Shown here: positions 8,060 to 35,354 of the stretch, piece after piece
How the letters are laid out: each line of letters begins with the position of its first letter
Numbering within the stretch: the stretch's first letter is position 1
Assembly (NCBI RefSeq): GCF_018861905.1
Contig: NZ_JAHLDU010000026.1
Location: 1 to 48,147 of the forward strand
Source of the DNA: Clostridium sp. DSM 17811
GTDB taxonomy: Bacteria; Bacillota; Clostridia; Clostridiales; Clostridiaceae
Direction of reading: 5' to 3'
Length of the DNA stretch: 48,147 nucleotides
Made by a program: the position numbers and the translations under genes
The notes under the pieces: model-generated
Told to the model about the DNA's origin: nothing
Seen by the model: the letters and a program-made list of their open reading frames with translations, nothing else
The model's database searches: none

Positions 8060-9073
8060 ATGAACAATGAGAATAATTTATATCCTGTGAAATTTAAGAA
8101 AAGATATGGGTACATAAATAGGGAAGGTAATGTAATTATAGAAAATAAATTTAATTATGCTCAGGAGTTTGAAGGGGACTTAGCGATAGTGGGTATAGAT
8201 AACAAGTATGGTTTTATAAATAAGGCTGGAGAGTTTGTAATTGAGCCTAAGTATGATGAAGTTATGCCATTTAATGAAGGGCTTGCGGCAATAAAAGTAG
8301 GCCATAAAAACGGGTATATTAATTTAAACGGAAAACTTATAGTTGAACCTAAATATGAGGAAGCTAATTTCTTTATTGAAGGAAGAGCGGCAGTAAAGAG
8401 TGGGTATATGTGGGGATACATAGATAGTGAAGGTACGGAAATAGTGCCACCAAAATATTTAGATGCTAACGATTATAGTGAGGGATTAGCAGCAGTTCAA
8501 ATAGGTGGTAAAATAGCATATATAGATAAGGATGGCAAAGTTATAATAGATGCAATTTATGATTATGCTAATGAATTTTACAGTGGTATAGCATCAGTTT
8601 GTTCTAAGGGAAAGTATGGGTATATAAACAAAAGCGGAGAAATAATTATACCGCTACGATATAATGTTTGCGATCAGTTCAATGAAGGATTGGCAGCAGT
8701 TGAGATAAGAGAAAAATACGGATACATAGATAACACAGGAGATATTATTATAAAACCGAAATTTGAGTGGGCGGGTAAATTTTATGAAGGTATAGCTGTA
8801 ATTTGTGAAAATGAAAAATATGGTTGTATTGATAAAAGTGGTAATATTACAATACCAACAAATTTTGAAGATATAGATATTATAAGTGAGGGTTTAATCG
8901 CTGCTCAAATAGGAGATTTGTGGGGTTATATAGATTGTTTAGGTGAAATAATTATAGAACCAATTTTTGAAGAAGCCTATGAATTTACTGAGGGAATTGC
9001 AAGGGTTGAAATAGGTAAAAGGATTGGATATATCAATAAATCGGGAGAATACATTTGGGAATTACAAGCTTAG
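8060..9073 (+). CDS. WG-repeat (KWG) protein
   Basis: The 337-residue product consists almost entirely of WG/KWG-type repeats of ~33-35 residues. Ten copies of the core G-[YF]-I-[ND]-x-x-G are visible, each followed by an I-x-P-x-[YF] strand and a [NS]EGLAA-like turn. Examples are GYINREG at the start, GYIDSEG and GYINKSG at the end. Such repeats probably form a closed beta structure used for protein binding; the role of the family is not known. No signal peptide or membrane helix is present, so the protein is likely cytoplasmic. The ATG at 8060 is preceded by AAAGGAAG. It has an own putative control region and a strong terminator, so it is monocistronic. Repeat divergence is moderate, so this is an old array. 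Confidence 0.85.
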   Translation: MNNENNLYPVKFKKRYGYINREGNVIIENKFNYAQEFEGDLAIVGIDNKYGFINKAGEFVIEPKYDEVMPFNEGLAAIKVGHKNGYINLNGKLIVEPKYEEANFFIEGRAAVKSGYMWGYIDSEGTEIVPPKYLDANDYSEGLAAVQIGGKIAYIDKDGKVIIDAIYDYANEFYSGIASVCSKGKYGYINKSGEIIIPLRYNVCDQFNEGLAAVEIREKYGYIDNTGDIIIKPKFEWAGKFYEGIAVICENEKYGCIDKSGNITIPTNFEDIDIISEGLIAAQIGDLWGYIDCLGEIIIEPIFEEAYEFTEGIARVEIGKRIGYINKSGEYIWELQA

Positions 9074-9199: not shown

Positions 9200-10093
9200 T
9201 TAATCTAAATTCTCATGAACGGTTAGAGGGTTTGCATTTAAGAAATCTATAAATACTTTTGAAACAGTGGATAAACAACAATTTTTTCTCCAAACGAGAG
9301 CAATTTTTATAGGAATAGTATTACATAATGGAATTTTTGTTATTTTATCATTATCTTCAACAATTTCTTTTAATAAAAAAGATATACCAACCCCGTTTGT
9401 AATAAGTCCTTTGACGGTTTCTAAGTGGTTGGACGATAAAATAATATTAGGCTGAACATTTTTTTCTCTAAAACGATCTAATACCTTCTCTCTTATGTAG
9501 AAGCCTTCTTTTAGTAGGATAATAGGTTCGCTTTTAATATCTTCAAATGTAATAGTTGACTTTTTTCTTAACGGATGTTCTTTTTTTAAGCAAACTAAGA
9601 GTTCGCTATCTAAAATAGGCAAGGAAGCTAGTAGATCATTACCTGGGTCACCTATAATAAGACCTAAATCCAAGTCTCCATTTTCTATCATTTGTCTTGT
9701 TTCAATAGATCCATATTCTATAATATTTAGTTTGATATTTGGATACAATTGTTTAAATTTAATAAAAACTATAGGAAATATAAAGGTACCGATCATTGGA
9801 GGGATGCCTATTGTAAGTATACCCTTTTTAAGATCCTCGTAATCCTTCATTTCCGTAGTGGCATTGTCTACTAGTTTTAAAATCTCATCTACTCTCTTTA
9901 AAAAAACTTTTCCTTCAACTGTTGGAAAAAGTTGCTTTTTAGATCTGTCAAAGAGTACACAGGACAGCTCTTTTTCTAAATTCTTAATGGAATTGGTAAT
10001 GGATGGTTGGGTTACGTAAAGCTTTTTTGCAGCTTGTGTAATACTATTTAATTGACAAACCATCTGGAAATATTGTAACTGTCTTAATTCCAT
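9200..10093 (-). CDS. LysR-family transcriptional regulator, divergent to the hdr-flx-frd cluster
   Basis: A 297-residue LysR-type regulator. The N-terminal winged helix-turn-helix covers residues 1-60 (MELRQLQYFQMV, then ITQAAKKLYVTQPSITNSI). A linker helix follows, then a periplasmic-binding-protein-like effector domain (LTIGIPPMIGT, GDLDLGLIIGD, GVGISFLLKE). Length and layout are normal for the family. AGGAGG sits 7 bases upstream of the ATG. It is divergently transcribed from the redox cluster, and a 16-bp dyad lies 28 bases upstream of its own start with a second copy near the cluster promoter. This is the classical arrangement for an autoregulated LysR protein that activates the adjacent operon. 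The effector is not visible; a C4-dicarboxylate is a reasonable guess from the neighbours. Confidence 0.9.
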   Translation of the reverse strand: MELRQLQYFQMVCQLNSITQAAKKLYVTQPSITNSIKNLEKELSCVLFDRSKKQLFPTVEGKVFLKRVDEILKLVDNATTEMKDYEDLKKGILTIGIPPMIGTFIFPIVFIKFKQLYPNIKLNIIEYGSIETRQMIENGDLDLGLIIGDPGNDLLASLPILDSELLVCLKKEHPLRKKSTITFEDIKSEPIILLKEGFYIREKVLDRFREKNVQPNIILSSNHLETVKGLITNGVGISFLLKEIVEDNDKITKIPLCNTIPIKIALVWRKNCCLSTVSKVFIDFLNANPLTVHENLD

Positions 10094-10481: not shown

Positions 10482-10527
10482 GGGAGGTGCAAATCTAGAC
10501 TTATACATTTGTTTAAAAGTCTAGATG
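10482..10527 (+). promoter_or_regulatory. Hairpin between Shine-Dalgarno and start codon of hdrB
   Basis: GGGAGGTG (10482-10489) is a near-perfect ribosome binding site but lies about 36 bases before the ATG at 10525. In between, TCTAGACTT (10494-10502) pairs perfectly with AAGTCTAGA (10517-10525) around a 14-base loop. Folding this 9-bp hairpin removes the intervening bases and brings the site to normal distance. An in-frame TAG at 10522-10524 excludes any start further upstream. Confidence 0.6.
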
Positions 10528-11322
10528 AAAAATATGAAGTATAGTTATTATCCAGGTTGTACGTTAAAGACGAAAGCTCAGAAATTAGAAAAGTATGCAC
10601 TAGATTCTGCAAAAGTCTTGGGGTTTGAGCTAGAAGAGCAAAAAGAGTGGCAATGTTGTGGTGCGGTATATCCAATGGCCACTGATGAAATAGCTACTAA
10701 ATTATCAGCTGTGCGGAGCCTAGCAGCAGCAAGGGATAAAGGTGAAAAGCTAGTCACTTTATGTGCAGCATGTCATCATGTGATTAAAAGAGTAAATGAA
10801 GATATGAAAAGCAAAGAGGATATAAAATCCAAGGTTAACAATTATTTAGACTTGCCAAAAGAATACGAGGGTGAGACACAAGTTCTTCACTATCTAGAAG
10901 TGCTTAGAGATGAAATAGGATTTGATGAACTGGCTAAAAAAGTTACGAATCCTCTTACTAATCGTAAAATTGGTGCATATTATGGTTGTTTGCTCCTTCG
11001 TCCAAGTAGTACCATGAATTTTGATGATCCAGAAAATCCTTCTATTATAGAAGATTTTATAACGGCAATAGGAGCTATTCCAGTTATATATCCATATAGA
11101 ACGGAGTGTTGTGGAGGGTACCTTTGTTTAGAACAGAAGGATCTTGTAAACAAAATGACAGATAATATAATACAATCCGCTGTAAAAAATGGTGCAGAAG
11201 AAATTGTTACTGCATGCCCCCTTTGTAAGTATAACCTAGAAATTAGTAATGATGGGGCAAAAGATAAACTATCTATTACCTATTTCACAGAACTTTTAGC
11301 AGAAGCTTTAGGTGTTAAATAA
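10525..11322 (+). CDS. hdrB: HdrB-like heterodisulfide reductase subunit (two CCG domains)
   Basis: A 265-residue homologue of CoB-CoM heterodisulfide reductase subunit B. It carries both cysteine-rich CCG domains that bind the two non-cubane [4Fe-4S] clusters: C12, C44-C45, C80 and C83 in the first (PGCTL, CCGAV, CAAC), and C155, C195-C196, C231 and C234 in the second (YYGC, CCGG, CPLC). No ligand is missing, so the subunit could still bind or reduce a disulfide, or pass electrons on. It is the first gene of the cluster. Start: ATG 10525, directly behind the hairpin described above; ATG 10534 is an alternative that matches the usual family N-terminus (MKYSYYPGC). The organism's type has no coenzyme M/B, so the physiological acceptor must differ; the downstream fumarate reductase is the candidate. 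Confidence 0.9.
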   Translation: MKNMKYSYYPGCTLKTKAQKLEKYALDSAKVLGFELEEQKEWQCCGAVYPMATDEIATKLSAVRSLAAARDKGEKLVTLCAACHHVIKRVNEDMKSKEDIKSKVNNYLDLPKEYEGETQVLHYLEVLRDEIGFDELAKKVTNPLTNRKIGAYYGCLLLRPSSTMNFDDPENPSIIEDFITAIGAIPVIYPYRTECCGGYLCLEQKDLVNKMTDNIIQSAVKNGAEEIVTACPLCKYNLEISNDGAKDKLSITYFTELLAEALGVK

Positions 11323-11341
11323 GATAGGAGGAGATAGTGTA

Positions 11342-11752
11342 ATGAAAAGAGTGAAAATATATTCAGGCAAAAGATCAAAAGAGTTAGAGCAAATTCTTCA
11401 AATTAGTGGGCAGAGGATACAAGATTGCATCCAGTGTGGAAAATGTTCAGCAAGTTGTCCTGCAAGTGAAGGTATGGATATTCTACCTCATCAGGTCATA
11501 AGATTACTTCAGACAGGAGAACTAGACAAGGTTATAGAGAGTAAAACGATTTGGTCTTGTGCTTCATGTTTTACATGTTCTGAACGTTGTCCTAGGGATA
11601 TAGATATTGCAAACGTTTTAGAGGCAGTGAGACTTATAGTTATTAGGCGTTCAGGAGAAAATAGAATAAAAGCTGAAGACGTTATTAAAAAAATAGATAA
11701 TAAAATGCCCCAACAGGCAATAGTAAGTGCATTTAGAAAATACAATAAATAA
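11342..11752 (+). CDS. hdrC: HdrC-like iron-sulfur subunit
   Basis: A 136-residue HdrC homologue with two classical [4Fe-4S] motifs: C29-x2-C32-x2-C35-x3-C39 (CIQCGKCSASCP) and C73-C76-C79-C83 (CASCFTCSERCP). In Hdr complexes this subunit wires HdrA to HdrB. The start is ATG 11342 with AGGAGG 10 bases upstream; the frame continues up to 11312, but those codons overlap the ribosome binding site. The gap to hdrB is 19 bases and that to hdrA is 48. Length is a little short of methanogen HdrC, with the usual helical tail after the second cluster. It is soluble, with no membrane helix, which excludes the HdrE/HdrD-type membrane system. Confidence 0.9.
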   Translation: MKRVKIYSGKRSKELEQILQISGQRIQDCIQCGKCSASCPASEGMDILPHQVIRLLQTGELDKVIESKTIWSCASCFTCSERCPRDIDIANVLEAVRLIVIRRSGENRIKAEDVIKKIDNKMPQQAIVSAFRKYNK

Positions 11753-11800
11753 TTTTTACATTAAAATAATGATACTGTTATTTTTAAAGGAGGAATCAAA

Positions 11801-13786
11801 TTGCAGAAAATTGGAGTTTTTGTTTGTTGGTGTGGAAGTAATATAGCAGCTACCGTAGACGTTGATAAAGTAATAAAAGAAGCACAAAAAATGCCTGGAG
11901 TTGTATACGCTAAAGACTATCAATATATGTGTTCCGAAGTAGGTCAGAATTTGATCAAAAATGCGATAAAAGATCAAAAATTAGATAGAGTTGTGGTAGC
12001 ATCATGTTCACCTAGAATGCATGAGGCAACATTTAGAAAAGCGGCTAAGGCAGCAGGTCTAAATCCATATTTATTAGAAGTTGCTAATATTCGAGAACAT
12101 TGTTCTTGGATTCATAAGGATAAAGAGATTGGGACGCCTAAAGCTATAGCTCTTGTTAGGGCTGCAGTGGCTAAAGCTACATTAAATAGTGGGCTTACAC
12201 CAGGTCAAATAGATGTAACGAAAAGGGCACTTGTTATTGGTGGAGGAATAGCAGGAATTCAAACTGCTCTTGATATTGCTGAGGCTGGTTATCAAGTTGA
12301 TATCATTGAGAAGTCACCAAGTATTGGTGGTAAGATGTCTCAACTTGATAAAACATTTCCAACACTCGATTGTTCTGCCTGTATTTTGACACCGAAAATG
12401 GTAGATGCCGCATCTCATGAAAATATAACATTATATACATATAGTGAACTTGAGGCAGTTAAGGGCTACGTTGGAAACTTTGAAGCAACCATTAACCAAA
12501 AGGCACGAAGTGTAAATATGGATAAGTGTACTGGTTGTGGTGTCTGTACTGAAAAATGTCCTTCGAAAAAAGCTAAAAGTGAGTTTAATGAAGGATTAAG
12601 AAACAGAGGGGCAATTTATATGCCTTTCGCTCAGGCGGTTCCAAACGTACCGGTTATAGATAGAGAACATTGTATCAAGTTTAAAACAGGAAAATGTGGG
12701 ATTTGTGAAAAAGTATGTACAGCGGGTGCCATTGATTTTGAACAGGTTGATACTAAAATAACAAAACAATATGGTGCTATAGTGGTATCCACAGGTTATG
12801 ATCTTATAAGTTTAGATAAATTTGGAGAATACCAGTATGGTCAGCATCCGGATGTAATAACATCTCTTGAATTTGAGAGATTAACAAATGCTGCAGGTCC
12901 AACAGCAGGTCATTTATTATGCCCATCTGATCAAAGAGTGCCTAAAAAAGTAGTGTTTATACAATGTGTTGGATCAAGGGACAAGACCTTAAGGGGTAAA
13001 CCTTATTGTTCAAAAATCTGTTGTATGTACACAGCAAAACATGCAATGTTACTTAAGGATCATTATCCTGATATGGAAGCCTATGTTTTCTATATTGATG
13101 TTCGTACACCAGGAAAAAACTTTGAAGAGTTCCAGAGAAGAGCTGTTGAAGAATATGGTGTTCATTATATTAAAGGAATGGTTGGTAAAGTTTTTCCAAA
13201 TGGAGAGAATCTTCAAGTTAATGCTATTGATGCTTCGACTGGAGAGACAGTTCAAATTGATGCGGATATAGTAGTGCTCGCTGCGGCAACTAAGGCCAAA
13301 GATGATGCAACTACAATTAAAAGAATATTAGGCATAAGCACAGATACAAATAATTTCTTTACAGAGGCTCATCCAAAACTTCGTCCTGTTGAAACTCATT
13401 CTGCAGGAATATTTCTAGCAGGAGCATGCCAGGGGCCAAAGGATATACCGGAGACAGTAGCACAAGCAAGTGCTGCAGCAGCAAAGGTAATTGGTGTATT
13501 AAGTAAGGATAAATTAGTTAATAATCCTTGTGTTTCAGAAGTAGATGAATCAATTTGTAGTGGATGTCTTGCGTGTACTAAAATATGTCCATATGATGCA
13601 ATTTCATCAAAAACAATTGAAGTTAAAGAGAATGGGAATATCATTACTAAAATAGTTGCAAGTGTAAATGAAGCACTTTGTCAAGGGTGCGGCGGATGTA
13701 CTGTAGCTTGTCGTCCTGGTGCCATTGATCTTAAAGGATTTACTAATAAACAGATTTTAGCGGAGGTGGATGCAATATGTCGATAG
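11801..13786 (+). CDS. hdrA: HdrA-like flavin- and FeS-containing subunit (presumed bifurcating)
   Basis: A 661-residue HdrA homologue of full normal length. In order: an N-terminal domain (CWCG near residues 9-12), the FAD dinucleotide-binding motif GGGIAG (147-152), the HdrA signature TLDCSACILTPKM (188-200), clusters C243-C246-C249-C253 and C291/C299/C302/C306, a thioredoxin-reductase-like body, and a C-terminal ferredoxin domain with C586-C589-C592-C596 and C627-C630-C633-C637. In characterised HdrABC-MvhADG complexes the HdrA FAD is the electron-bifurcation site and its ferredoxin domains lead to ferredoxin; by homology that role is expected here. Start: TTG at 11801 with AAAGGAGG upstream. 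It overlaps flxD by 10 bases, so the two are likely translationally coupled. No Sec/UGA codon is involved. Confidence 0.93.
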   Translation: MQKIGVFVCWCGSNIAATVDVDKVIKEAQKMPGVVYAKDYQYMCSEVGQNLIKNAIKDQKLDRVVVASCSPRMHEATFRKAAKAAGLNPYLLEVANIREHCSWIHKDKEIGTPKAIALVRAAVAKATLNSGLTPGQIDVTKRALVIGGGIAGIQTALDIAEAGYQVDIIEKSPSIGGKMSQLDKTFPTLDCSACILTPKMVDAASHENITLYTYSELEAVKGYVGNFEATINQKARSVNMDKCTGCGVCTEKCPSKKAKSEFNEGLRNRGAIYMPFAQAVPNVPVIDREHCIKFKTGKCGICEKVCTAGAIDFEQVDTKITKQYGAIVVSTGYDLISLDKFGEYQYGQHPDVITSLEFERLTNAAGPTAGHLLCPSDQRVPKKVVFIQCVGSRDKTLRGKPYCSKICCMYTAKHAMLLKDHYPDMEAYVFYIDVRTPGKNFEEFQRRAVEEYGVHYIKGMVGKVFPNGENLQVNAIDASTGETVQIDADIVVLAAATKAKDDATTIKRILGISTDTNNFFTEAHPKLRPVETHSAGIFLAGACQGPKDIPETVAQASAAAAKVIGVLSKDKLVNNPCVSEVDESICSGCLACTKICPYDAISSKTIEVKENGNIITKIVASVNEALCQGCGGCTVACRPGAIDLKGFTNKQILAEVDAICR

Positions 13787-14241
13787 AAGCCGAAAAAATC
13801 GAGGGGATAGATAAAAGTGAATTTGAACCCTTAATTGTAGCTTTTTGTTGTAACTGGTGTAGTTATGCAGGAGCGGATTTAGCGGGGACAAGCAGATTAG
13901 CTTATCCTGCCAATGTTAAAATTATTAGGGTTCCATGCTCATGTAGAGTAAGTGAAAACTTTATACTTCGTGCATTCCAACATGGGGCTGACGGTGTAGT
14001 AATTGCCGGTTGTCATCCAGGGGATTGTCATTATACAAGTGGGAATTATCATACAAGACGTCGTTTTTCAATTTTGACAAATTTGCTTGTATTTATGGGG
14101 ATAGAAAAAGAACGTTTTAGAGTGGATTGGATTTCAGCAGCAGAGGGACAAAAATTTTCAAGCGTTATGAATGACGTATTAGAGAAAGTTCATAAACTTG
14201 GCCCTAATAGAAAGTTGAGGGATGAAAGATGGATAAGATAA
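13777..14241 (+). CDS. flxD: MvhD/FlxD-like [2Fe-2S] adaptor subunit
   Basis: A 154-residue protein of the MvhD (hydrogenase iron-sulfur subunit) family, the electron-transfer adaptor that docks an oxidoreductase module to HdrA. The cysteines are C24-C25-C28 (CCNWCSYAGAD), C54/C56 (PCSCR) and C79/C84 (GCHPGDCHY), followed by the conserved GNYHTRRR and the C-terminal WISAAEG. From memory, the family usually has PCSGR; here the glycine is a cysteine (C56). Its place between hdrA and the flx genes agrees with the FlxD role of linking NADH oxidation to HdrA. It overlaps hdrA (10 bases) and flxC (13 bases). The start ATG at 13777 has GGAGGTGGA upstream inside the hdrA coding sequence. Confidence 0.9.
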   Translation: MSIEAEKIEGIDKSEFEPLIVAFCCNWCSYAGADLAGTSRLAYPANVKIIRVPCSCRVSENFILRAFQHGADGVVIAGCHPGDCHYTSGNYHTRRRFSILTNLLVFMGIEKERFRVDWISAAEGQKFSSVMNDVLEKVHKLGPNRKLRDERWIR

Positions 14242-15212
14242 CACAAAAAATAAGAGAAACTGCAAAATTAGCCCTAGAAAATGGGGAAGTAGAAAAGATT
14301 ATAGGCTGGGAAAAGGGAGATACATTTGATGATTCTTATCCCGTGTTTATTACAGATGTCGATAAAGTAGATTCTTTAGTATGGGATTGTTTCTGCGTTA
14401 ATAACCTAAGTAAATACTTGCTTAAGGAATTAAAAGATAATAAAAAAGTAGGTATATTTTTAAAAGGATGCGATTCCCTTGGATTTAACCAACTTATAAA
14501 TGATAACAGAGTAGATCGAAGCAAGGTTGTTGTTTATGGAATAGGTTGCCCCGGTATGATTGATCCAGAAAAAGTAAAAAAAGAAGGATTAGATAAAGGC
14601 CTTTTAAGTGTTAAAAGATCTGGGGATGAAATCATATTTGTAAGAAATGATGGTGAAAAGAAGGTTACCTCAAATGAATTTGAATATGATAAATGCATTA
14701 GATGTAGACGGCTTAACCCTGTAGTGTATGATCAGATGATGTCTGATACGGTAACTAGAGAAGTAGATCCACTAGAACGATTTAAAGAAGTGGAAAAACT
14801 TGAAGCTCTAACTGATGAAGAAAAATCTGATTTTTGGTCTGCTCAATTTTCAAAATGCATAAGGTGTAATGCTTGTCGTAATATATGTCCTGCATGTAGT
14901 TGCGTAAAATGTATTTTTGATAACGATAAGGCAGAGGTATCAGGTAAAGCAAATGTAGAAAGTGAAGAGCAGTTTTATCATATTATTAGGGCTTATCACG
15001 TTGGCGGTCGTTGCGTGGACTGTGGAGAATGTAGCAGAGTATGTCCAGCAAATATACCACTTTACCTATTAAATAGTAAAATAATGAAAGACATAAATGA
15101 ACTTTATGGTGAATATGATGCGGGAGTAGATCCAACTAAACAAGCCCCAATCGGAATGTTTAAACTGGATGATAGTGATTCATTTACATCACACGGAGGT
15201 GGGAAAAAATGA
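14229..15212 (+). CDS. flxC: FlxC-like iron-sulfur subunit
   Basis: A 327-residue iron-sulfur protein. The N-terminal half resembles the FrhB/FdhB fold (FLKGCDSLGFNQL near 78-89, YGIGCPGMID near 103-112). It contains extra cysteine pairs C54/C56 and C156/C159. The C-terminal half has C210-C213-C216-C220, immediately followed by C223/C225/C228, and then C262-C265-C268-C272, so two or three [4Fe-4S] clusters are likely. In the known flxABCD-hdrABC clusters this is the third Flx subunit, relaying electrons between FlxB and FlxD. The ATG at 14229 lies inside flxD (13-base overlap) with GAGGGATGA upstream. It is soluble. The assignment rests on gene order plus cysteine pattern; the exact route of electrons through it is not known. 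Confidence 0.8.
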   Translation: MDKITQKIRETAKLALENGEVEKIIGWEKGDTFDDSYPVFITDVDKVDSLVWDCFCVNNLSKYLLKELKDNKKVGIFLKGCDSLGFNQLINDNRVDRSKVVVYGIGCPGMIDPEKVKKEGLDKGLLSVKRSGDEIIFVRNDGEKKVTSNEFEYDKCIRCRRLNPVVYDQMMSDTVTREVDPLERFKEVEKLEALTDEEKSDFWSAQFSKCIRCNACRNICPACSCVKCIFDNDKAEVSGKANVESEEQFYHIIRAYHVGGRCVDCGECSRVCPANIPLYLLNSKIMKDINELYGEYDAGVDPTKQAPIGMFKLDDSDSFTSHGGGKK

Positions 15213-16243
15213 TGAAGAAAATATTAAAAAATAAGTTTTCGGATCTTTTTAGTAAAATTGATGAATCTTATGAACTGTTTTTGCCTATTGAAGTGGATGG
15301 GAAAGTTAACTTTGATATGTGGAAACAAGGAGATATGGTGAATGTAGAAAAACTGAAAACTAATATTTCACCAAAAAGCTTTATTTTCCCACAAAGTGAA
15401 ACTTACTTAAAGTTTAAAAGGGATGGAAAGAAACTTGAACTGGACAATGTAGGAGGAAAAAAAGAGGAGTATGTATTATTTGGAGTCAGGCATTGCGATG
15501 CAAGGAGCTTTAAGCTACTTGACAATGTATTTCTCAGTGATCCTGTAGATGCTTTATATGAGGAAAGGCGAGAAAAAGGAACTATAGTTTCAATGGCCTG
15601 TTTTAATCCTGCGGAAACTTGCTTTTGTAGTTCATTTGGGATTGAGCCACAAACAGCTTCGAAGGAAGTTGATGTTAACACATGGGATATTGGGGATAGC
15701 ATACTTTGGGATCCACAAACTCAAAAGGGTGAAAACTTAACAAAGCAATTAAAGGATATTTTAGAAGATGTTACTGAGCAGGATAAAAGTGAATTAAATG
15801 CATTACAAGAGGCTACAAATGATAAGTTAAAAGAGCTTCCTTTAGCAAACCTAGACCCTAAAAAAATAAAAGGTGAGCTTAATGAGTTATTTGAATCTGA
15901 AATTTGGGGAGAACTTAGTCAGCGGTGCTTAGGATGTGGTTCATGTACTTATGTATGTCCTACTTGTCATTGTTATGATGTTTCTGATTTTAAAGGGGAT
16001 ACATCTGGAGAAAGATTCCGTTGCTGGGATTCATGTATGTTCTCGGATTTTACTCTTATGGCACATGGGAATATCAGAAAAACGCAAAAGGAAAGATTCA
16101 GGCAGCGTTTCATGCATAAGCTTGTTTATTATCCCAATAATAATGAGGGTGTATATGCTTGCGTTGGATGTGGAAGGTGCGTTGAAAAATGTCCAGTTCA
16201 CTTGGATATTGTTAAAGTAATTAAAAAGTTGGGTGGTGAATAA
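15209..16243 (+). CDS. flxB: FlxB-like (AsrA-type) dicluster iron-sulfur subunit
   Basis: A 344-residue protein related to the anaerobic sulfite reductase A subunit/FlxB, which carries electrons from the NAD(P)H-oxidising subunit onwards. The N-terminal ~230 residues form the AsrA-like domain with GVRHCDARS (92-100) and CFNPAETCFCSSFG (131-144), a cysteine-rich segment. The C-terminal part holds two [4Fe-4S] motifs, C240-C243-C246-C250 and C318-C321-C324-C328, with CPTCHCYD just after the first. The start is ATG 15209 (or the adjacent ATG 15212), overlapping the flxC stop by 4 bases, with GGAGGTG upstream: tight coupling. No sulfite reductase catalytic subunit (AsrC) is present nearby, which argues against an Asr complex. 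Confidence 0.85.
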   Translation: MMKKILKNKFSDLFSKIDESYELFLPIEVDGKVNFDMWKQGDMVNVEKLKTNISPKSFIFPQSETYLKFKRDGKKLELDNVGGKKEEYVLFGVRHCDARSFKLLDNVFLSDPVDALYEERREKGTIVSMACFNPAETCFCSSFGIEPQTASKEVDVNTWDIGDSILWDPQTQKGENLTKQLKDILEDVTEQDKSELNALQEATNDKLKELPLANLDPKKIKGELNELFESEIWGELSQRCLGCGSCTYVCPTCHCYDVSDFKGDTSGERFRCWDSCMFSDFTLMAHGNIRKTQKERFRQRFMHKLVYYPNNNEGVYACVGCGRCVEKCPVHLDIVKVIKKLGGE

Positions 16244-16244
16244 A

Positions 16245-17096
16245 ATGAGCTGTACTTGTAATGAACATGAACATGTGAACCCTTTAATGCCAGAAATAGC
16301 TGAGATAATTGATGTTAGAAAGGATACACATGATGTAACTACTTTTAGAGTTATAAAACCTGGTGGTGGAAAACCATTTGAACATATGCCAGGTCAATGT
16401 GCAATGATTTCGGTTCCTCCATTTGGAGAAGCTATTTTCTCAATCACTTCTTCTCCAACGCAAAAGGATTATATGGAGTTTAGTGTAAAAAGATGTGGTG
16501 TGGTTACAGAATATCTACATGGTTTAGAGGTAGGCAGTGAAATCGGAATAAGAGGACCCTATGGAAATAATTTTCCTGTTAATGATGAACTAAAAGGAAA
16601 AGACCTTCTTTTCATCGGTGGTGGAATAGGTTTAGCACCTATTCGTTCTGTTATAAACTATGTAATGGATAATAGAGAAAATTATGGAAAGGTAGATATT
16701 CTATATGGATCAAGATCACCTGAAGATCTTGTTTTTCAAAAGGACATCTTTGAAAACTGGCCATCGAGGCCTAATACAGAGGTTCATTTAACTGTTGATA
16801 GAGAAGCCGAAGGATGGGAAGGACATGTAGGATTTGTTCCATCTTATGTTAAAGAAATTGGATTTGATACAAATAAAGTAGCCTTGTTATGTGGGCCACC
16901 TATCATGATTAAATATACTCTTCAAACACTTATGGAAATAGGATTTAAGAAGGATCAGGTATACACAACGTTAGAATTAAAAATGAAATGCGGCGTAGGA
17001 AAATGTGGACGTTGTAATATTGGAGATAAATATGTGTGTAAAGATGGTCCAGTATTTAGATGCGATGAAATAGATGAACTTCCTGATGAATATTAA
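16245..17096 (+). CDS. flxA: FlxA-like NAD(P)H-oxidising FAD/[2Fe-2S] subunit
   Basis: A 283-residue ferredoxin-NADP reductase-like protein of the AsrB/PyrK/FlxA type, the probable NADH entry point of the complex. It has an FAD-binding barrel (GQCAMISVP near 50-58, FSITSSPT near 65-72, RGPYGNNFP), the nicotinamide-binding GGGIGLAPIRS (125-135) and CGPPIM (216-221), then a C-terminal [2Fe-2S] motif C249, C254, C257, C265 (CGVGKCGRC). It begins with an unusual CTC-x5-H segment at residues 3-10 that could bind metal. Start: ATG 16245, one base after the flxB stop with GGGTGGTG upstream; in-frame GTGs at 16233/16236 overlap that site. NADH rather than NADPH use is inferred from studied Flx systems, not from sequence. 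Confidence 0.88.
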   Translation: MSCTCNEHEHVNPLMPEIAEIIDVRKDTHDVTTFRVIKPGGGKPFEHMPGQCAMISVPPFGEAIFSITSSPTQKDYMEFSVKRCGVVTEYLHGLEVGSEIGIRGPYGNNFPVNDELKGKDLLFIGGGIGLAPIRSVINYVMDNRENYGKVDILYGSRSPEDLVFQKDIFENWPSRPNTEVHLTVDREAEGWEGHVGFVPSYVKEIGFDTNKVALLCGPPIMIKYTLQTLMEIGFKKDQVYTTLELKMKCGVGKCGRCNIGDKYVCKDGPVFRCDEIDELPDEY

Positions 17097-17115
17097 TAAT
17101 AAATCGTTTAAAACC

Positions 17116-17136
17116 ATCCCATTAAAGATTTGGGAT
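17116..17136 (+). other. Small intercistronic hairpin before frdB
   Basis: ATCCCA (17116-17121)/TGGGAT (17131-17136) form a 6-bp stem with a 9-base loop, ending directly at the AAAGGAGG ribosome binding site (17137-17144) of the next gene. It lacks a U-tract. It may mark an mRNA processing or stability boundary between the Hdr-Flx genes and the fumarate reductase genes. Confidence 0.35.
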
Positions 17137-17152
17137 AAAGGAGGCATATAAA

Positions 17153-17833
17153 ATGTCCAACAAAGAAATGGTGGAAATATACATATTAAATAAAAAATAT
17201 TCTGTACCTTCAAGTCTTACAATTATGGATTCGATGGAGTATGCAGGGTACAAATTAGTAAGAGGATGTGGATGTAGGGGCGGCTTTTGCGGTGCTTGTT
17301 CCACAATATATAGAATTAAAGGCAAGAATGAATTAAAGGTATGTTTAGCATGTCAAACTAAGGTTGAAGATGGTATGTATCTTACTCAATTGCCATTTTT
17401 CCCTGGAGACAAAAGAACTTATGATATGAATGAACTAGAGCCAACAGCTGATACAATGATGAAACTTTATCCTGAAATATATAGCTGTATTGGTTGTAAT
17501 TCATGTACTAAGGGGTGTCCACAAGGGCTTAATGTTATGCAGTATATTGCCAGTGCTCAAAGAGGAGATATTGAGAAATGTGCTCATGAATCTTTTGACT
17601 GTGTAATGTGCGGAATCTGTGCTTCTAGATGCCCAGCTGGTATAACTCATTATCAAGTAGCAATGCTTGCTCGAAGACTTACAGGCAAATATATTGCTCC
17701 TGAAACAGAAGATTTGACAAAAAGGGTAAAAGAGATTCAAGAAGGCACGTATGATGATTCAATGAAAGAATTAATGATTAAAAGTATAGATGAATTAAAG
17801 GAATTATATAACACAAGAGATATTACAAAGTAA
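17153..17833 (+). CDS. Fumarate reductase-type iron-sulfur subunit
   Basis: A 226-residue SdhB/FrdB/TfrB-related subunit. An N-terminal plant-type [2Fe-2S] domain has C41, C46, C49 and C64/C67 (GCRGGFCGACS, CLAC). A helical domain follows with C112-C115-C118-C122 (CIGCNSCTKGCP) and C150-C153-C156-C160 (CVMCGICASRCP). The last motif is a full CxxCxxCxxxCP, so a second [4Fe-4S] cluster is expected where quinone-linked FrdB has a [3Fe-4S] cluster; this resembles HdrC. Methanogen TfrB has a fused HdrB-like CCG domain, which is absent here, while hdrB is a separate gene upstream. Start: ATG 17153 with AAAGGAGG 8 bases upstream. The gap to the flavoprotein gene is 50 bases. No membrane anchor gene is present, so the complex should be soluble. 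Confidence 0.88.
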   Translation: MSNKEMVEIYILNKKYSVPSSLTIMDSMEYAGYKLVRGCGCRGGFCGACSTIYRIKGKNELKVCLACQTKVEDGMYLTQLPFFPGDKRTYDMNELEPTADTMMKLYPEIYSCIGCNSCTKGCPQGLNVMQYIASAQRGDIEKCAHESFDCVMCGICASRCPAGITHYQVAMLARRLTGKYIAPETEDLTKRVKEIQEGTYDDSMKELMIKSIDELKELYNTRDITK

Positions 17834-17883
17834 AGAGCACCAATAAATCTCATAAAATATAGGTTTACCAGGGAGGTATTTTA

Positions 17884-19494
17884 ATGTATACAGCAGAAAT
17901 GAGGGTGCTAATAAAGAAGGTAGAGGCCACCCGTGAGCAAAGACTAGGAGTTCAGTTTCCGAGGATGAGTGCTAAGGAAAAGGAAGATATATTAAAGGAA
18001 AATTATCCGGATTATAAGGAAGAAGAGTTCAAAAATCTAAGTGTTGGACCGAGCAAAGGATCTAAGGTTCCATTACAACTTGCAGAACTTATTGAAGCTA
18101 AAAGCAGACTTCAAAATTTAGATATGGATTTAACTAAAGTGGATTATGATGTAGATGTTTTGATAATAGGCGGAGGAGGAGCTGGAGCATCAGCAGCTCT
18201 AGAAGCCCACAAAACAGGAGCAAATGTATTGATTGCCACAAAATTACGTTTCGGTGATGCCAATACGATGATGGCTGAAGGTGGAATACAGGCTGCAGAT
18301 AAGCCAGATGATTCTCCTGCAAAACATTACATGGATGTAATGGGAGGCGGACATTTTACCAATAAAAAAGAACTTGTTAATGCTCTTGTAATGGATGCTC
18401 CAGGAGCAATAAAATGGTTGAATGAACTTGGGGTAATGTTTGATAAAGAAAAAGATGGTACAATGGTCACTACTCACGGAGGTGGAACTTCAAGAAAAAG
18501 AATGCATGCTGCTGCCGACTATTCAGGAGCTGAAATCATGCGTGTCCTTAGGGATGAAGTTATTAACAAAGGTATCGAAGTGGTAGAATTCTCACCTGCT
18601 GTGGAGATAATCCTAGACAAGGATGGCAAAGCTGCTGGAGCTGTATTATTTAATATAGAAACAGAGGAATATCTAATAGCAAGAGCTAAAACTGTTATTA
18701 TAACCACAGGAGGTGCCGGACGACTTCATTATCAAGGTTTTCCTACAACAAATCATTACGGTGCTACAGCAGACGGGTTAGTACTTGGATATAGAGCCGG
18801 AGCTGAACTCATTTTCGCAGATGCTGTGCAGTATCACCCTACAGGAGTAGCATATCCTCCACAAATTTTTGGAGCACTTGTTACGGAGAAGGTTCGTAGT
18901 TTAGGGGCGACACCTCTAAATATTGATGGTGAGCAATTTACTTACCATCTTGAAACCAGAGATGTGGAAACATCTGCATTAATTAGAGAATGTCATATAA
19001 GAAATAAAGGTATTGATACAGCTGCAGGGGAAAAAGGCATATGGCTAGATACTCCTTTAATAGAATTAATTAATGGTGAAGGAACAATTGAAAAGAGACT
19101 TCCAGCAATGCTAAGAATGTACCAAAAATTTGGTATTGATATGAGAATAGATCCAATTCTCGTATATCCAACACTTCATTATCAAAATGGAGGACTTTTA
19201 ATTGATGAAAATGGTCAAACTAAGGTAGAAAACCTTTATGTGGCAGGAGAAGCTTCAGGTGGAATCCACGGTAGTAACAGGTTAATGGGTAATTCACTAT
19301 TAGATATTATTGTTTTTGGACGTAGAGCAGGGTCACATGCAGGCGAAAATTGCAAAAATGTTAATGTGAAAGAACTTAGTCTTGACCATGTTAAAAAATA
19401 CCATAAGAGTCTTGAAGAAAATGGTATAATTACAGACAAAATCTCTCCTATGTTGTTACCACATTATACTCATGGAAGAGAAAATAATAAATAA
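17884..19494 (+). CDS. Soluble fumarate reductase-type flavoprotein subunit
   Basis: A 536-residue FAD protein of the SdhA/FrdA/TfrA family, expected to reduce fumarate to succinate. The FAD motif GGGGAG is at ~96-101. Active-site residues are conserved: H318 (QYHPTG), R359 in TRDVETSAL (proton-donor Arg of the family), and H432 (LHYQNGG); the C-terminal GEASGGIHGSNRLMGNSLLD FAD segment is intact. Three things are odd. The position of the covalent FAD-linking His (SHT in E. coli FrdA) is Asn127 (ANTMMAEGG), so FAD should be non-covalent. About 90 residues precede the Rossmann fold (RLGVQFPRMS, NYPDYKEEEF). The usual C-terminal helical domain of ~130 residues is almost entirely missing. L-aspartate oxidase is unlikely given the iron-sulfur partner. 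Start ATG 17884 has GGGAGGT upstream. Confidence 0.85.
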   Translation: MYTAEMRVLIKKVEATREQRLGVQFPRMSAKEKEDILKENYPDYKEEEFKNLSVGPSKGSKVPLQLAELIEAKSRLQNLDMDLTKVDYDVDVLIIGGGGAGASAALEAHKTGANVLIATKLRFGDANTMMAEGGIQAADKPDDSPAKHYMDVMGGGHFTNKKELVNALVMDAPGAIKWLNELGVMFDKEKDGTMVTTHGGGTSRKRMHAAADYSGAEIMRVLRDEVINKGIEVVEFSPAVEIILDKDGKAAGAVLFNIETEEYLIARAKTVIITTGGAGRLHYQGFPTTNHYGATADGLVLGYRAGAELIFADAVQYHPTGVAYPPQIFGALVTEKVRSLGATPLNIDGEQFTYHLETRDVETSALIRECHIRNKGIDTAAGEKGIWLDTPLIELINGEGTIEKRLPAMLRMYQKFGIDMRIDPILVYPTLHYQNGGLLIDENGQTKVENLYVAGEASGGIHGSNRLMGNSLLDIIVFGRRAGSHAGENCKNVNVKELSLDHVKKYHKSLEENGIITDKISPMLLPHYTHGRENNK

Positions 19495-19586
19495 TAAAAC
19501 TAAATGTAATACAGTTTGAAAGGCGATGATACAAAAAAATAGACCATTGCTTGGAAAATTAAAAAAATGGAAGGAGTTGTTGGTTC

Positions 19587-20429
19587 ATGCGTAAAGTTGA
19601 TGTAAAAGAAATTGAAAATGCTTTAAAAGACATGAGTATTAAGACTAATTTTTATGTGGGAGAAGACGTATTATGCGCCTTTCACAAAGCCGAAAAGGAA
19701 GAAACATCTCCTGTAGGAAGAGATATAATAAGTAATTTGCTTAAAAATGCTGAAATTGCGAAAAATGATCAAGTTCCAATTTGTCAGGATACAGGTATGG
19801 CTGTAGTATTTGTAGAAGTAGGTCAAGAAGTTGAGTTAATAGGTGGAAATATTACAGAGGCAATTAATGAAGGAGTACGACGTGGATATAAAGAAGGATA
19901 TTTAAGAAAATCCGTTGTAGAAGATCCTTTAAAACGAAAAAACACAGGAGATAATACTCCTGCTGTAATCTATTATGATATTGTGCCAGGTGATAAAGTC
20001 AAAGTAACATTAGCTCCAAAAGGTTTTGGTAGTGAAAATATGAGTAGATTAAAAATGCTTAAACCATCAGATGGGTTAGCTGGTGTACTTGATTTTGTTG
20101 TAGAAGCGGTTTCACTTGCAGGTCCAAATCCATGTCCACCTATTGTTGTAGGTGTTGGAATTGGAGGCACATCAGATAAAGCAATGTATCTTGCTAAGAA
20201 AGCTTTAACAAGAGATATTGGTAGTCATAATAAAACTGAGCATTTAAAAGAAATTGAGTTAACTTTACTAGAAAAAATTAATGCACTAGGAATAGGACCT
20301 CAAGGACTAGGTGGTAATACTACAGCCCTTGCCGTTAATGTGGAAGCTTTTGCAACACATATTGCTGGATTACCAGTGGCAGTAAATATTAATTGTCATG
20401 TTGCAAGACATGCAATAACAATAATATAG
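19587..20429 (+). CDS. Class I fumarase/tartrate dehydratase-type hydro-lyase, alpha subunit
   Basis: A 280-residue alpha subunit of the two-subunit, oxygen-sensitive [4Fe-4S] hydro-lyases (fumarase class I; TtdA is the tartrate relative). The three cluster cysteines are C66 (ICQDTGM), C183 (PNPCPP) and C270 (NCHVARH). VGVGIGGTSDKA and GPQGLGGNTTALAV are typical family signatures. The enzyme interconverts malate and fumarate, or dehydrates L-tartrate to oxaloacetate. Because it lies right after the fumarate reductase genes, fumarase is the better call: it supplies fumarate from malate. Start: ATG 19587 with AAGGAG 10 bases upstream. The beta subunit follows after 12 bases. Confidence 0.88.
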   Translation: MRKVDVKEIENALKDMSIKTNFYVGEDVLCAFHKAEKEETSPVGRDIISNLLKNAEIAKNDQVPICQDTGMAVVFVEVGQEVELIGGNITEAINEGVRRGYKEGYLRKSVVEDPLKRKNTGDNTPAVIYYDIVPGDKVKVTLAPKGFGSENMSRLKMLKPSDGLAGVLDFVVEAVSLAGPNPCPPIVVGVGIGGTSDKAMYLAKKALTRDIGSHNKTEHLKEIELTLLEKINALGIGPQGLGGNTTALAVNVEAFATHIAGLPVAVNINCHVARHAITII

Positions 20430-20441
20430 GGAGGGGTAAAA

Positions 20442-20993
20442 ATGGAAATCAAACATATAACTACTCCATTAACACAGGAGAAGTTAAAGGATTTAAAATC
20501 AGGAGATAGTGTCTTAATATCAGGAACTATGTATACAGGAAGAGATGCAGCTCATCAAAGGTTAGTAGATGCAATTAACAATGGTGAAAAATTACCTTTT
20601 GATCCAAAAGATGCCATTATATATTATGTAGGACCTGCTCCAACTAAACCTGGAAATGTAATAGGGTCTGCTGGTCCAACTACTAGTTATAGAATGGATG
20701 ATTTGACTGTTCCACTTCTTGAACTAGGTCTTACTGGAATGATTGGAAAAGGACTTAGAAGCAAAACTGTAGTAGATTCAATGAAGAAAAATGGTGCTAT
20801 TTATTTTGCTGCAATAGGAGGAGCTGGAGCTCTCATTTCTAAATCAATAAAAGAATGTGAAATTATTGCTTTTGAAGATTTGGGTCCAGAAGCCGTTAGG
20901 AAACTTACGGTAGTAGATTTCCCGGCCGTTGTTGTAATAGACAGTGAAGGTAATAATCTTTATGAGACAGAAAGAAAAAAATATCAAAAATAG
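20442..20993 (+). CDS. Class I fumarase/tartrate dehydratase-type hydro-lyase, beta subunit
   Basis: A 183-residue beta subunit partner of the preceding gene, corresponding to the C-terminal domain of single-chain class I fumarases. Visible signatures are SGTMYTGRDAAHQR, YYVGPAPTKPG, GSAGPTTSYRMDD, MIGKGLRSK and IGGAGALIS. These shape the substrate pocket; the cluster ligands are in the alpha subunit. Length is normal for stand-alone beta subunits. Start: ATG 20442 with GGGAGGGG upstream and a 12-base gap to alpha, so the pair is co-translated. Fumarase and tartrate dehydratase cannot be told apart with certainty from sequence alone. Confidence 0.88.
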   Translation: MEIKHITTPLTQEKLKDLKSGDSVLISGTMYTGRDAAHQRLVDAINNGEKLPFDPKDAIIYYVGPAPTKPGNVIGSAGPTTSYRMDDLTVPLLELGLTGMIGKGLRSKTVVDSMKKNGAIYFAAIGGAGALISKSIKECEIIAFEDLGPEAVRKLTVVDFPAVVVIDSEGNNLYETERKKYQK

Positions 20994-21022
20994 AATAGCA
21001 AGATAACCTAATAAAATTAAAT

Positions 21023-21055
21023 AGGGGGGCGTATTAATTAAGTACAAGCCCCCCT
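21023..21055 (+). other. GC-rich intercistronic hairpin before the transporter gene
   Basis: AGGGGGGC (21023-21030) pairs with GCCCCCCT (21048-21055) around a 17-base AT-rich loop. The stem is by far the most GC-rich spot in an AT-rich gap of 123 bases between fumarase beta and the transporter. It is followed by TATAAATT rather than a U-run, so a partial terminator or a processing/stability element that lowers transporter expression is more likely than a full stop. Confidence 0.5.
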
Positions 21056-21116
21056 TATAAATTAAGGTATGGTAGCTAAAATATTTACAAATAAGTAAAA
21101 TAAGGGAGCTTTAATT

Positions 21117-22547
21117 ATGACAAAAAGTTCTAGTAATTCGTTATATTCTGAAAAGTATATTAAGTTTTTAATAGCAATTATCGTAGGTATTATTATATGG
21201 TTTATACCAGCACCTATTGGAGTTAAACCTCAGGCCTGGCACATGCTTGCAATTTTTGTTGCAACAATAGTAGGGTGCATTTTAAAACCGTTTCCGATTG
21301 GAGCGTTGTCTATAATAGGATTAACTGTATCAATTCTAACGGGAACTGTAACTACCAAAATTGCAATTGAAGGTTTTGGCAATAGCAGTATATGGCTTAT
21401 AGTTATGGCATTCTTTATTTCGAGAGGTTTCATAAAAACAGGTCTCGGAACAAGAGTCGCTTATCTATTTGTAAGATCATTCGGGAAAAAGACCCTTGGG
21501 CTTTGTTATTCAATTATTTTCTGTGATCTTGTAATAGCACCTGCTACTCCAAGTAACACAGCAAGAGCAGGTGGAATAATTTATCCTATTATAAAATCTC
21601 TTTCGGAAGCTTTTGGTTCGAAACCTGAGGATGGAACTGAAAGGAAAATAGGATCTTTTCTTATATTCTGTGAATTTCATGGAGATATTATAACTTCTGC
21701 AATGTTTATGACAGCAATGGCAGCTAATCCATTAGCTCAGAGTCTTGCTGCAACTTTTGGAGTTCAAATTACTTGGCTTGGGTGGTTTATAGCGGCTGTT
21801 GTTCCAGGTGTTATTTCTCTTATAGTAATACCTCTTATAATTTATAAACTATATGCACCAGAAATTAAAAGTACACCTAATGCACCAAAATTTGCTAATG
21901 ATGCTCTAAAAGAAATGGGACCTCTTAAAAGAAGTGAAAAATTTATGGCATTAATATTTGTTATAGTACTTATTTTATGGGTAACAGGAACCATAACTAA
22001 TATAGATGCAACACTTACAGCATTTATTGGACTTTCTCTTCTTTTAACTACCGAAGTTCTAACTTGGGATGATGTAAAGAGTGAAAAGGGAGCTTGGGAT
22101 ACGCTCATGTGGTTCTCTGTACTTGTTATGATGGCAACTCAGCTTAATAAACTTGGGCTAATACCATGGCTTAGTAATGCAATTGGACAAAATGTAAAGG
22201 GATTTAGTTGGCCTATTATTTTAATTGTTTTACTTTTAGCTTATTTCTATAGTCACTATATTTTTGCAAGTTCAACAGCACATGTAAGTGCTATGTACTC
22301 AGCATTTCTTGGAGTTGCAATAGCAGGAGGAGTACCACCTATGCTTGCAGCTATAAGTTTAGGAGTATTTGGAAATCTATTTGCTTCAACAACTCATTAT
22401 AGTAGTGGTCCTGCACCTATTCTTTTTGGTTCAGGTTATGTAAGTCAGAATAAATGGTGGAGTTTAAACTTTATTCTTGGAATAGTATACTTTGTTATAT
22501 GGATTGGTGGAGGTTTAGTATGGTGGAAAATTATTGGATTATATTAA
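21117..22547 (+). CDS. DASS-family anion transporter (C4-dicarboxylate/succinate antiporter-like)
   Basis: A 476-residue polytopic membrane protein of the divalent anion:Na+ symporter (DASS) family, which includes CitT (citrate/succinate) and TtdT (tartrate/succinate) antiporters. About a dozen hydrophobic segments are visible, beginning with one at residues ~14-32. The two substrate/ion signature regions are present: PSNTARAGG near residue ~145 and STTHYSSGPAPILFGSG near the C-terminus. Length matches CitT/TtdT (~487). It follows the fumarase genes after a GC-rich hairpin and is probably the last gene of the cluster. I infer uptake of malate, fumarate or a related acid in exchange for succinate, the expected end product. 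Start: ATG 21117 with AAGGGAG upstream. Confidence 0.85.
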   Translation: MTKSSSNSLYSEKYIKFLIAIIVGIIIWFIPAPIGVKPQAWHMLAIFVATIVGCILKPFPIGALSIIGLTVSILTGTVTTKIAIEGFGNSSIWLIVMAFFISRGFIKTGLGTRVAYLFVRSFGKKTLGLCYSIIFCDLVIAPATPSNTARAGGIIYPIIKSLSEAFGSKPEDGTERKIGSFLIFCEFHGDIITSAMFMTAMAANPLAQSLAATFGVQITWLGWFIAAVVPGVISLIVIPLIIYKLYAPEIKSTPNAPKFANDALKEMGPLKRSEKFMALIFVIVLILWVTGTITNIDATLTAFIGLSLLLTTEVLTWDDVKSEKGAWDTLMWFSVLVMMATQLNKLGLIPWLSNAIGQNVKGFSWPIILIVLLLAYFYSHYIFASSTAHVSAMYSAFLGVAIAGGVPPMLAAISLGVFGNLFASTTHYSSGPAPILFGSGYVSQNKWWSLNFILGIVYFVIWIGGGLVWWKIIGLY

Positions 22548-35332: not shown

Positions 35333-35354
35333 AGATTGTTAGGAAGGTGTAAAC

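Follow-up and report, generated by a model that had tools for sequence, protein, structure and literature searches.

Which acceptor does a heterodisulfide reductase-type Hdr-Flx complex reduce when its genes run directly into those of a fumarate reductase? The question is raised by a 48,147-nucleotide stretch of Clostridium sp. DSM 17811 (contig NZ_JAHLDU010000026.1; hereafter the window), which is one entire contig (C26) of a 5.19-Mb genome. The list of open reading frames (ORFs) and family searches place hdrBCA-flxDCBA-frdBA-fumAB-DASS in a single array on the + strand (10525-22547). This confirms a first, sequence-only reading, which had described hdrBCA-flxDCBA running on one strand and with partial overlaps into a FrdB-like gene, a FrdA-like gene, a two-subunit fumarase, and a DASS transporter. 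We conclude that hdrBCA-flxDCBA-frdBA probably encodes a single cytosolic enzyme that uses NADH to reduce both fumarate and ferredoxin. The system is real, widespread, and previously proposed, and the window holds a further member.

The sequence-only reading overstated the novelty of fumarate as the Hdr acceptor, as the proposal was previously in print (excerpts of PMC7282089 and PMC6315080). For the “succinate operon” of Pseudoclostridium thermosuccinogenes, coupling of succinate formation to ferredoxin reduction was proposed in a 2019 preprint by Koendjbiharie and van Kranenburg, cited in excerpts of PMC7282089. That operon and the window both have Flx-Hdr, FrdAB, fumarase, and a putative transporter in one operon; by locus-tag order the fumarase comes first there, whereas it follows frdA in the window. 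In tubeworm symbionts and Thioflavicoccus, flxABCD-hdrABC is interspersed with korABCD and tfrAB in a reductive tricarboxylic acid cycle cluster, and direct electron transfer was loosely suggested (excerpts of PMC6315080). The likeness to the window, drawn by gene arrangement alone, lies in the interspersion of Hdr-Flx with fumarate reductase genes; the difference lies in the gammaproteobacterial carbon fixation setting, with a 2-oxoglutarate:ferredoxin oxidoreductase alongside. All seven subunits of FlxABCD-HdrABC from Desulfovibrio (Ramos 2015 and Ferreira 2023, as described in excerpts of citing papers) are shared with the window, which has them in one array, with matching domain make-up and an HdrA with FAD and ferredoxin domains. 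No experimental test of a Hdr-Flx-Frd complex was seen in the open literature searched, subscription journals and preprints lying outside that scope. As far as we know from the excerpted sources, what goes beyond the printed proposals is the HdrB subfamily, the finding of this subfamily in an hdrCB-frdBA unit and in trans, the donor swaps, and the contrast in DsrC.

The array is not a chance arrangement: the same block is found at 113 further, distinct loci (119 listings, 26 of them cut by contig ends, with 6 loci common to both sets described here). The neighborhood is thus not unique to this genome, and the co-occurrence of hdrABC-flxABCD with frdAB that the sequence-only reading had proposed to look for holds elsewhere. 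In a class set of 291 genomes searched for FrdB at E 1e-20, 40 genomes, the window's own among them, have FrdB, all at ≥56% identity, and the 39 other loci were all fetched; FrdB is absent at this threshold from the 12 other listed genomes of the window's own family. All 39 other class loci join frdB, frdA, and flx genes: 29 hold the full nine genes in order, a contig end truncates nine, and one is permuted (L074, frdBA-hdrBCA-flxDCBA; L-numbers denote loci and G-numbers genomes of the comparison sets). A scan of named genomes confirmed at least 541 FrdB relatives from 591 pattern matches, and among the best 80 loci frdBA is joined to Hdr-Flx in every case (63 full, 17 cut by contig ends). Three loci with extra weak neighbors (L049, L098, and L104) were placed by inspection of the order of their genes.

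The linked loci spread over three phyla, and the best 80 include Cetobacterium, Treponema, a Negativicutes metagenome-assembled genome (MAG), and a MAG named Ruminococcus flavefaciens; titles of gut or rumen MAGs are common among them. The closest named FrdB among the matches listed is 95% identical and belongs to Clostridium lacusfryxellense. A fumarase alpha match lies within the fetched stretch in 12 of the 39 class loci and 25 of the 80 named loci. An FlxB search of the class set returned a window-type Hdr-Flx without FrdB once, in G032, whose FrdBA may lie beyond the contig, because the contig stops inside flxA and the genome is 62% complete. The same search found flxDCBA with fragmentary or long HdrA matches and no frdB in G037, G065, G070, and G155, the last with a weak frdA-like stretch close to its flxDCBA array. 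Among the window-type loci examined, the linkage of frdBA with Hdr-Flx is invariant.

In the mechanism that we propose, FlxA would take a hydride from NADH, and FlxB, FlxC, and FlxD would relay the electrons to the HdrA flavin. Each pair would be split there: ferredoxin would receive one electron, and the other would travel by way of HdrC and the HdrB CCG clusters straight into the iron-sulfur chain of FrdB. From there it would pass over a non-covalent FAD of FrdA to fumarate, so that overall 2 NADH + fumarate + oxidized ferredoxin would give 2 NAD+ + succinate + reduced ferredoxin. We infer both the direction of electron flow and NADH as the donor. The fumarase and the DASS transporter could supply fumarate from malate or import C4-dicarboxylates, and reduced ferredoxin may be reoxidized by Rnf or by a putative hydrogenase. 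RnfC is found in the window genome, and the ferredoxin could therefore power an ion gradient. With textbook E0' values of +33, -320, and -420 to -500 mV, the overall reaction comes to about -33 to -49 kJ/mol under standard conditions.

Bifurcation at HdrA is likely. The protein aligns end to end with a methanogen HdrA (5odc_A, E 7e-204), and its Glu-359 and Lys-413 align with Glu-356 and Lys-409 of that chain, which we take to lie near the bifurcating flavin. The same subunits might instead form a non-bifurcating NADH:fumarate reductase, with HdrA as a mere relay and no ferredoxin reduced. Such an enzyme would find a precedent in MetFV-HdrABC-MvhD of Moorella, a related Hdr complex that showed no bifurcation in the tests cited in excerpts of PMC8578096, and it would fit the distribution of RnfC, which is above cut-off in only 20 of the 40 class FrdB genomes. 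We consider it unlikely, as HdrA keeps its ferredoxin domains within a whole-length alignment to the methanogen protein, and a simple NADH:fumarate reductase would presumably not need HdrA and would waste the full NADH-to-fumarate drop (∼68 kJ/mol from the same potentials).

Outside the class, FrdBA occurs in reshuffled contexts. In a phylum set of 398 genomes, 39 have FrdB, and 38 other loci were typed, their contexts being annotated by matches to window genes and, for a few neighbors, by Pfam (the Pfam scan left out L192). Type I, with window-like order but hdrC before hdrB, is represented by one locus and type II (frdBA-hdrBCA-flxDCBA) by four. The five type III loci consist of hdrC-hdrB-frdB-frdA with no hdrA or flx (one is cut before frdA; three have fumarase genes in front). 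In the 11 type IV loci, frdBA is preceded by hdrCBA, another, long HdrA-like gene, and FlpD, and flxAB is absent, two loci being cut on the left. In the eight type V loci, frdBA lies near fumarase genes and a Frd-type hdrBCA-flxDCBA is found elsewhere in the genome; two of these Hdr loci (L239 and L242) extend to the end of their contig. The nine type VI loci have frdBA without Hdr neighbors in genomes with no HdrB above 200 bits; their neighbors include a QmoC-like membrane subunit in three, cytochrome c and FMN-binding genes in one, and pyruvate carboxylase in one certain and one probable case (L191, judged from an ORF that matches the one in L187 in length, 1144 aa, and in position).

Some of these loci deserve a closer description. 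L173, L175, L178, L179, and L182 are reduced units with hdrC-hdrB directly before frdB and with frdA next where the contig allows; each of their genomes additionally encodes DsrC and, at another locus, a plain Flx-Hdr. Ten donor-swapped loci (L180, L181, L185, L188, L189, and L198-L202) have a long second HdrA-like protein, FlpD, and a Pfam-less protein (376 aa in L188) before frdBA; hdrCBA is present in 8/10, and L185 and L189 are cut on the left. L188 carries a malic enzyme gene in front of the array and a 2-oxoacid:ferredoxin oxidoreductase subunit (POR_N) behind frdBA, and this type IV locus is the closest arrangement here to the cluster described in excerpts of PMC6315080. In L193, L194, and L197, frdBA is followed by a QmoC-like gene (4Fe-4S and cytochrome b561 domains), a neighborhood suggesting that this fumarate reductase can also couple to quinones. 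As a module, FrdBA thus accepts several donors, and it stands with Hdr-Flx in every window-type locus seen.

The Hdr subunit that would face FrdB forms a subfamily of its own. Every one of the 28 phylum genomes whose HdrB match exceeds 200 bits belongs to the 39 that have FrdB, and the best HdrB in a FrdB-less genome reaches 196 bits. Seven of the 28 have HdrB and FrdB at separate places; an eighth, G644, has them on two contigs because its FrdB contig stops within the array. A tree of 97 HdrB rows (coverage ≥75% of the query) drew on the window, all 39 class loci, the phylum loci, and 10 named loci picked from the 80 to widen the range of taxa. Plain HdrBs were represented by the next-best matches from 17 of the 122 FrdB-less genomes with HdrB and from three FrdB genomes, and by separate Hdr loci of FrdB genomes; 9 of the 20 next-best plain loci have no flxCBA. 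The tree separates 65 Frd-associated rows (types I-V) from 32 others (Shimodaira-Hasegawa-like approximate likelihood ratio test, 99), a split that is partly expected because the plain rows were sampled by next-best score. The sole exception is a second HdrB copy in the L183 array. Fifty-eight of the Frd-associated rows share an array with frdB, and the seven of type V were labeled after score and gene order had been seen. A careful tree of 72 of the 97 rows, from which half of those of type I and six on long branches had been removed, gives the same split (100/100). The approximately unbiased (AU) test rejects a grouping of all HdrBs from flx-bearing loci, with a p-AU of 6.6e-8 that is not to be taken at face value because the hypothesis was framed after the tree had been seen.

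Because the plain rows are a sample of next-best matches, comparison within genomes is the cleanest control. Five type III genomes (G333, G535, G558, G581, and G642) hold both kinds of HdrB: the copy directly before frdB is of the Frd-side kind, whereas the copy of the plain Flx-Hdr locus is not. The former is 41-44% identical to the window HdrB and the latter 33-36%, and the plain copies share 54-57% identity with another plain HdrB. The subfamily therefore goes with FrdBA and not with Flx. The plain Flx-Hdr loci fetched from the phylum have the order hdrC-hdrB-hdrA and the other HdrB subfamily.

The two subfamilies differ at distinct positions. His-51, Leu-57, Ala-60, Leu-61, Asn-65, Pro-79, Trp-189, and Arg-241 are each found in 91-97% of plain HdrBs and in <20% on the Frd side, where Thr-13, Val-86, His-122, Leu-158, Glu-176, and Tyr-199 reach 92-100%; the window HdrB has Leu-60 and Ser-61, as does the Frd-side majority. 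The asparagine of the ARN(L/I) motif is also present in the methanogen HdrBs of the PDB, which reduce a disulfide. As it is common to plain and methanogen HdrBs, the Frd side appears to have lost it. The median length of HdrC also differs (134 aa in 69 Frd-side rows versus 190 aa in the nine plain rows left after the 75% coverage filter), a comparison to which we give little weight. SdhE, an HdrB-like CCG subunit, works with SdhB, and the SdhE model beats the HdrB model in 4/5 Frd-side and 0/4 plain HdrBs tested, by small margins. The window HdrB reaches 162.9 bits with the SdhE model (cut-off 500), above its score with the coenzyme B-coenzyme M (CoB-CoM) HdrB model. SdhE of SdhABE (8-methylmenaquinol:fumarate reductase) is named a membrane anchor subunit, whereas the window HdrB lies in a soluble Hdr-Flx array.

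These residue differences bear on a thiol/disulfide intermediate, which the sequence-only reading had left possible on the ground that HdrB keeps all CCG cysteines. HdrB would then reduce the disulfide of a DsrC-like protein or a small thiol, and the dithiol would reduce FrdBA, as the CoM and CoB thiols do with TfrAB. The alignment indeed has all ten CCG cysteines in the window HdrB, and they are kept across the Frd-side HdrBs. In both systems a CCG protein would feed a FrdB-like protein. TfrB carries its own CCG domain; in the window, HdrB would supply this domain as a separate Flx-Hdr subunit, and family searches of FrdB (226 aa) gave no match to a CCG domain. In type III loci, moreover, frdB follows hdrB immediately. 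The partner of plain Flx-Hdr in Desulfovibrio is DsrC, which is held to be its acceptor (excerpts of PMC10920352 and PMC10504309). Among the 40 class FrdB genomes no DsrC match passes the cut-off, G179 having only a weak one below it. Of 14 phylum FrdB genomes, five have DsrC above cut-off, and these are precisely the type III genomes that carry a plain Flx-Hdr as well. In 33 further genomes, DsrC occurs in 9/17 FrdB-less genomes with plain Hdr and in 3/16 with FrdB (G322, G363, and G368, all of the QmoC type with a separate Flx locus). The search covered 70 of the 78 FrdB genomes (G376, G411, G466, G490, G537, G624, G644, and G662 were left out). With FrdB lacking a CCG domain, DsrC missing above cut-off in the class FrdB genomes, and the plain-type residues not conserved on the Frd side, the thiol intermediate is now improbable, even though the cysteines that had favored it are confirmed. 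The distribution suggests a division of labor in which plain HdrB works with DsrC and Frd-side HdrB with FrdBA. As 8 of the 17 plain genomes have no DsrC, the plain complexes probably have further acceptors.

FrdBA might also be a free-standing soluble fumarate reductase served by another carrier, with Hdr-Flx merely co-expressed for redox balance. Indeed, 17 of the 38 phylum loci have frdBA without an adjoining Hdr gene (8 type V, with Frd-type Hdr-Flx elsewhere in the genome, and 9 type VI), and HdrA is absent at E 1e-60 from 4 of the 39 phylum FrdB genomes, so FrdBA can be fed otherwise. We nevertheless give simple neighborhood little credence, given the linkage in 113 other loci, the co-occurrence in trans, and the presence of the HdrB subfamily in an hdrCB-frdBA unit without HdrA or Flx.

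FrdB has ligands for a [2Fe-2S] cluster (Cys-41, Cys-46, Cys-49, and Cys-67) and two [4Fe-4S] clusters (Cys-112/115/118/122 and Cys-150/153/156/160), and all twelve cysteines are invariant in 88/88 aligned rows. It scores below the cut-off for the iron-sulfur subunit of respiratory complex II (TIGR00384, 25.9 bits versus 88). Hdr-associated rows (n = 79) and type VI rows (n = 9) differ only at positions 128 and 162, too little for a claim about an interface.

FrdA keeps the catalytic His/Arg/Glu set of a dicarboxylate site. His-318, Glu-335, Arg-338, Arg-359, His-432, and Arg-466, which we take to be the active site from the alignment with SdhA and NadB and from the roles we assume for these residues, are invariant in 86/86 rows. 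So is Asn-127, which aligns with the complex II histidine that binds FAD covalently. The best NCBIfam match of FrdA is TfrA (341 bits, cut-off 718); L-aspartate oxidase (NadB) was considered and rejected, as TIGR00551 gives 267.7 bits, under its cut-off of 452.75. By plain sequence, the closest solved chain is subunit A of mycobacterial Sdh1. The AlphaFold model of FrdA has a predicted local distance difference test (pLDDT) score of 87.1, with the first 85 residues mostly at ∼90. VIA-align ranks soluble flavocytochrome c fumarate reductases first (Z 37.2), and Foldseek ranks E. coli quinol:fumarate reductase first. Residues 1-67 are barely covered by the fold comparison, and no fold is claimed for the N-terminal extension. 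A second FrdA-like locus lies in the same genome (G000:C2, L002; 32% identity). Operation mainly in reverse, as succinate oxidation with electron confurcation, could be read from the genes flanking L188, which would allow either direction, and is hardly credible for the window, as it is uphill by 33-49 kJ/mol under standard conditions, the complex II histidine is replaced by asparagine in FrdA, the closest folds by VIA Z are flavocytochrome c fumarate reductases, which work one way, and the fumarase and DASS transporter genes adjoin.

Beside the precedent and the gene distributions already given for its rivals, several points weigh against a bifurcating complex in which HdrB feeds FrdB. Both CCG clusters are retained in HdrB, although a mere conduit might do without them, and the HdrB split carries the sampling of its plain rows and the late labeling of its in-trans rows. 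In the HdrA and FlxA trees, a Frd-linked clade is not rejected (p-AU 0.38 and 0.215) yet is absent from the best trees; only three HdrA rows of the 20 next-best plain loci passed the filter. The AlphaFold model of FrdB (mean pLDDT 56.7; residues 1-90 mostly <50) is too poor for contact analysis. Set against these, the HdrB subfamily, the hdrCB-frdBA unit, the in-trans occurrence, the donor swaps, and the DsrC contrast make direct transfer from HdrB to FrdB the best reading of the sequences, and we hold it to be very probable. The claim that fumarate is the high-potential acceptor has gained good support from the gene linkage, from an HdrB subfamily that accompanies FrdBA both in cis and in trans, from the hdrC-hdrB-frdB-frdA units, and from the FrdA active site. 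On balance, we also lean slightly toward the broader view that FrdBA and its own HdrB subfamily form an interchangeable acceptor module, in which HdrB, a known disulfide reductase, would have turned into a dedicated conduit and the hdrB(C)-frdBA half would be joined to Flx (NADH), to a double HdrA with FlpD, or to HdrC-HdrB alone.

The genes of the array and its upstream neighbor are listed in Table 1.

Table 1. Genes of the hdr-flx-frd array and the divergent regulator gene in the window
Feature	Position	Strand	Remarks
LysR-type regulator	9200..10093	-	Divergent, upstream of operon; same place in L036, L075, L076
HdrB, Frd-side subfamily	10525..11322	+	Two complete CCG motifs
HdrC, 4Fe-4S dicluster protein	11342..11752	+	GTG alternative start at 11312
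HdrA, FAD and ferredoxin domains	11801..13786	+	Full-length alignment to methanogen HdrA 5odc_A
FlxD, MvhD/FlpD family	13777..14241	+	Sole FlpD match of genome
FlxC, Fe-S protein	14229..15212	+	Closest solved chains: formate dehydrogenase beta subunits of methanogen Hdr complexes
FlxB, Fe-S protein	15209..16243	+	AsrA / sulfhydrogenase beta type
FlxA	16233..17096	+	FAD- and NAD-binding domains and Fe-S domain of dihydroorotate dehydrogenase electron-transfer subunits
FrdB-like, 226 aa	17153..17833	+	Ligands for one [2Fe-2S], two [4Fe-4S]
FrdA-like fumarate reductase flavoprotein, 536 aa	17884..19494	+	85-residue N-terminal extension
Class I fumarase alpha	19587..20429	+	NF004885 (PRK06246) 418 bits, cut-off 276
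Class I fumarase beta	20442..20993	+	NF005310 (PRK06842) 295.5 bits, cut-off 238
DASS-family transporter	21117..22547	+	TIGR00785 434 bits, cut-off 198.6

The pairs hdrA/flxD, flxD/flxC, flxC/flxB, and flxB/flxA overlap. A scan for terminator-like sites, which reports consensus matches only, found none between the operon genes on the + strand; its + strand matches within the operon fall inside the flxA and DASS genes. The LysR gene is the probable regulator of the operon. E. coli has a tartrate set of LysR, TtdAB, and TtdT, and a tartrate pathway was considered for this locus. The L(+)-tartrate dehydratase (TtdAB) models failed (183.8 bits, cut-off 365, and 98.1 bits, cut-off 264) and the fumarase models passed, so the label fumarase is right and the tartrate pathway was rejected.

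The genome has a single FlpD match and a single HdrB match (E 1e-20), both in the operon, which therefore appears to be its only Hdr-Flx system. A second FlxB/FlxA-like pair, ∼30-38% identical and possibly the anaerobic sulfite reductase AsrAB, is found at G000:C2:20493-22247 (L163), with no adjoining Hdr gene matched. In the plain Flx-Hdr loci of G322, G368, G535, and G558, the otherwise open HdrA genes contain a single in-frame TGA, perhaps encoding selenocysteine; of two motif scans for its position, the first fitted almost nothing and the second returned no TGA. Elsewhere in the window, a protein of nine WG repeats is encoded between the exonuclease III and LysR genes (8060-9073, + strand). 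An EF-G-like protein (24244-26244, - strand) resembles tetracycline ribosomal protection proteins (NF012153, 538 bits, under the cut-off of 775). Sugar- or sialic acid-like genes (33599-43960, + strand) include members of the phosphomannomutase, nucleotidyl transferase, UDP-sugar dehydrogenase, and NeuB families.

The split within HdrB places the question at one interface, namely which residues separate a disulfide reductase from a partner of fumarate reductase. If the proposal holds, a soluble fumarate reductase would join the short list of bifurcation acceptors, and Hdr complexes would be seen to exchange acceptors. It would also explain how many fermenters could gain low-potential ferredoxin while making succinate, without a membrane chain. 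As FrdB relatives are common (at least 541 stretches), the balance of hydrogen, succinate, and propionate in gut and rumen could be affected. Driven by NADH, the system would then give many gut and environmental anaerobes a bifurcating path to succinate that needs no membrane, among them the MAG named Ruminococcus flavefaciens and the Treponema MAGs.

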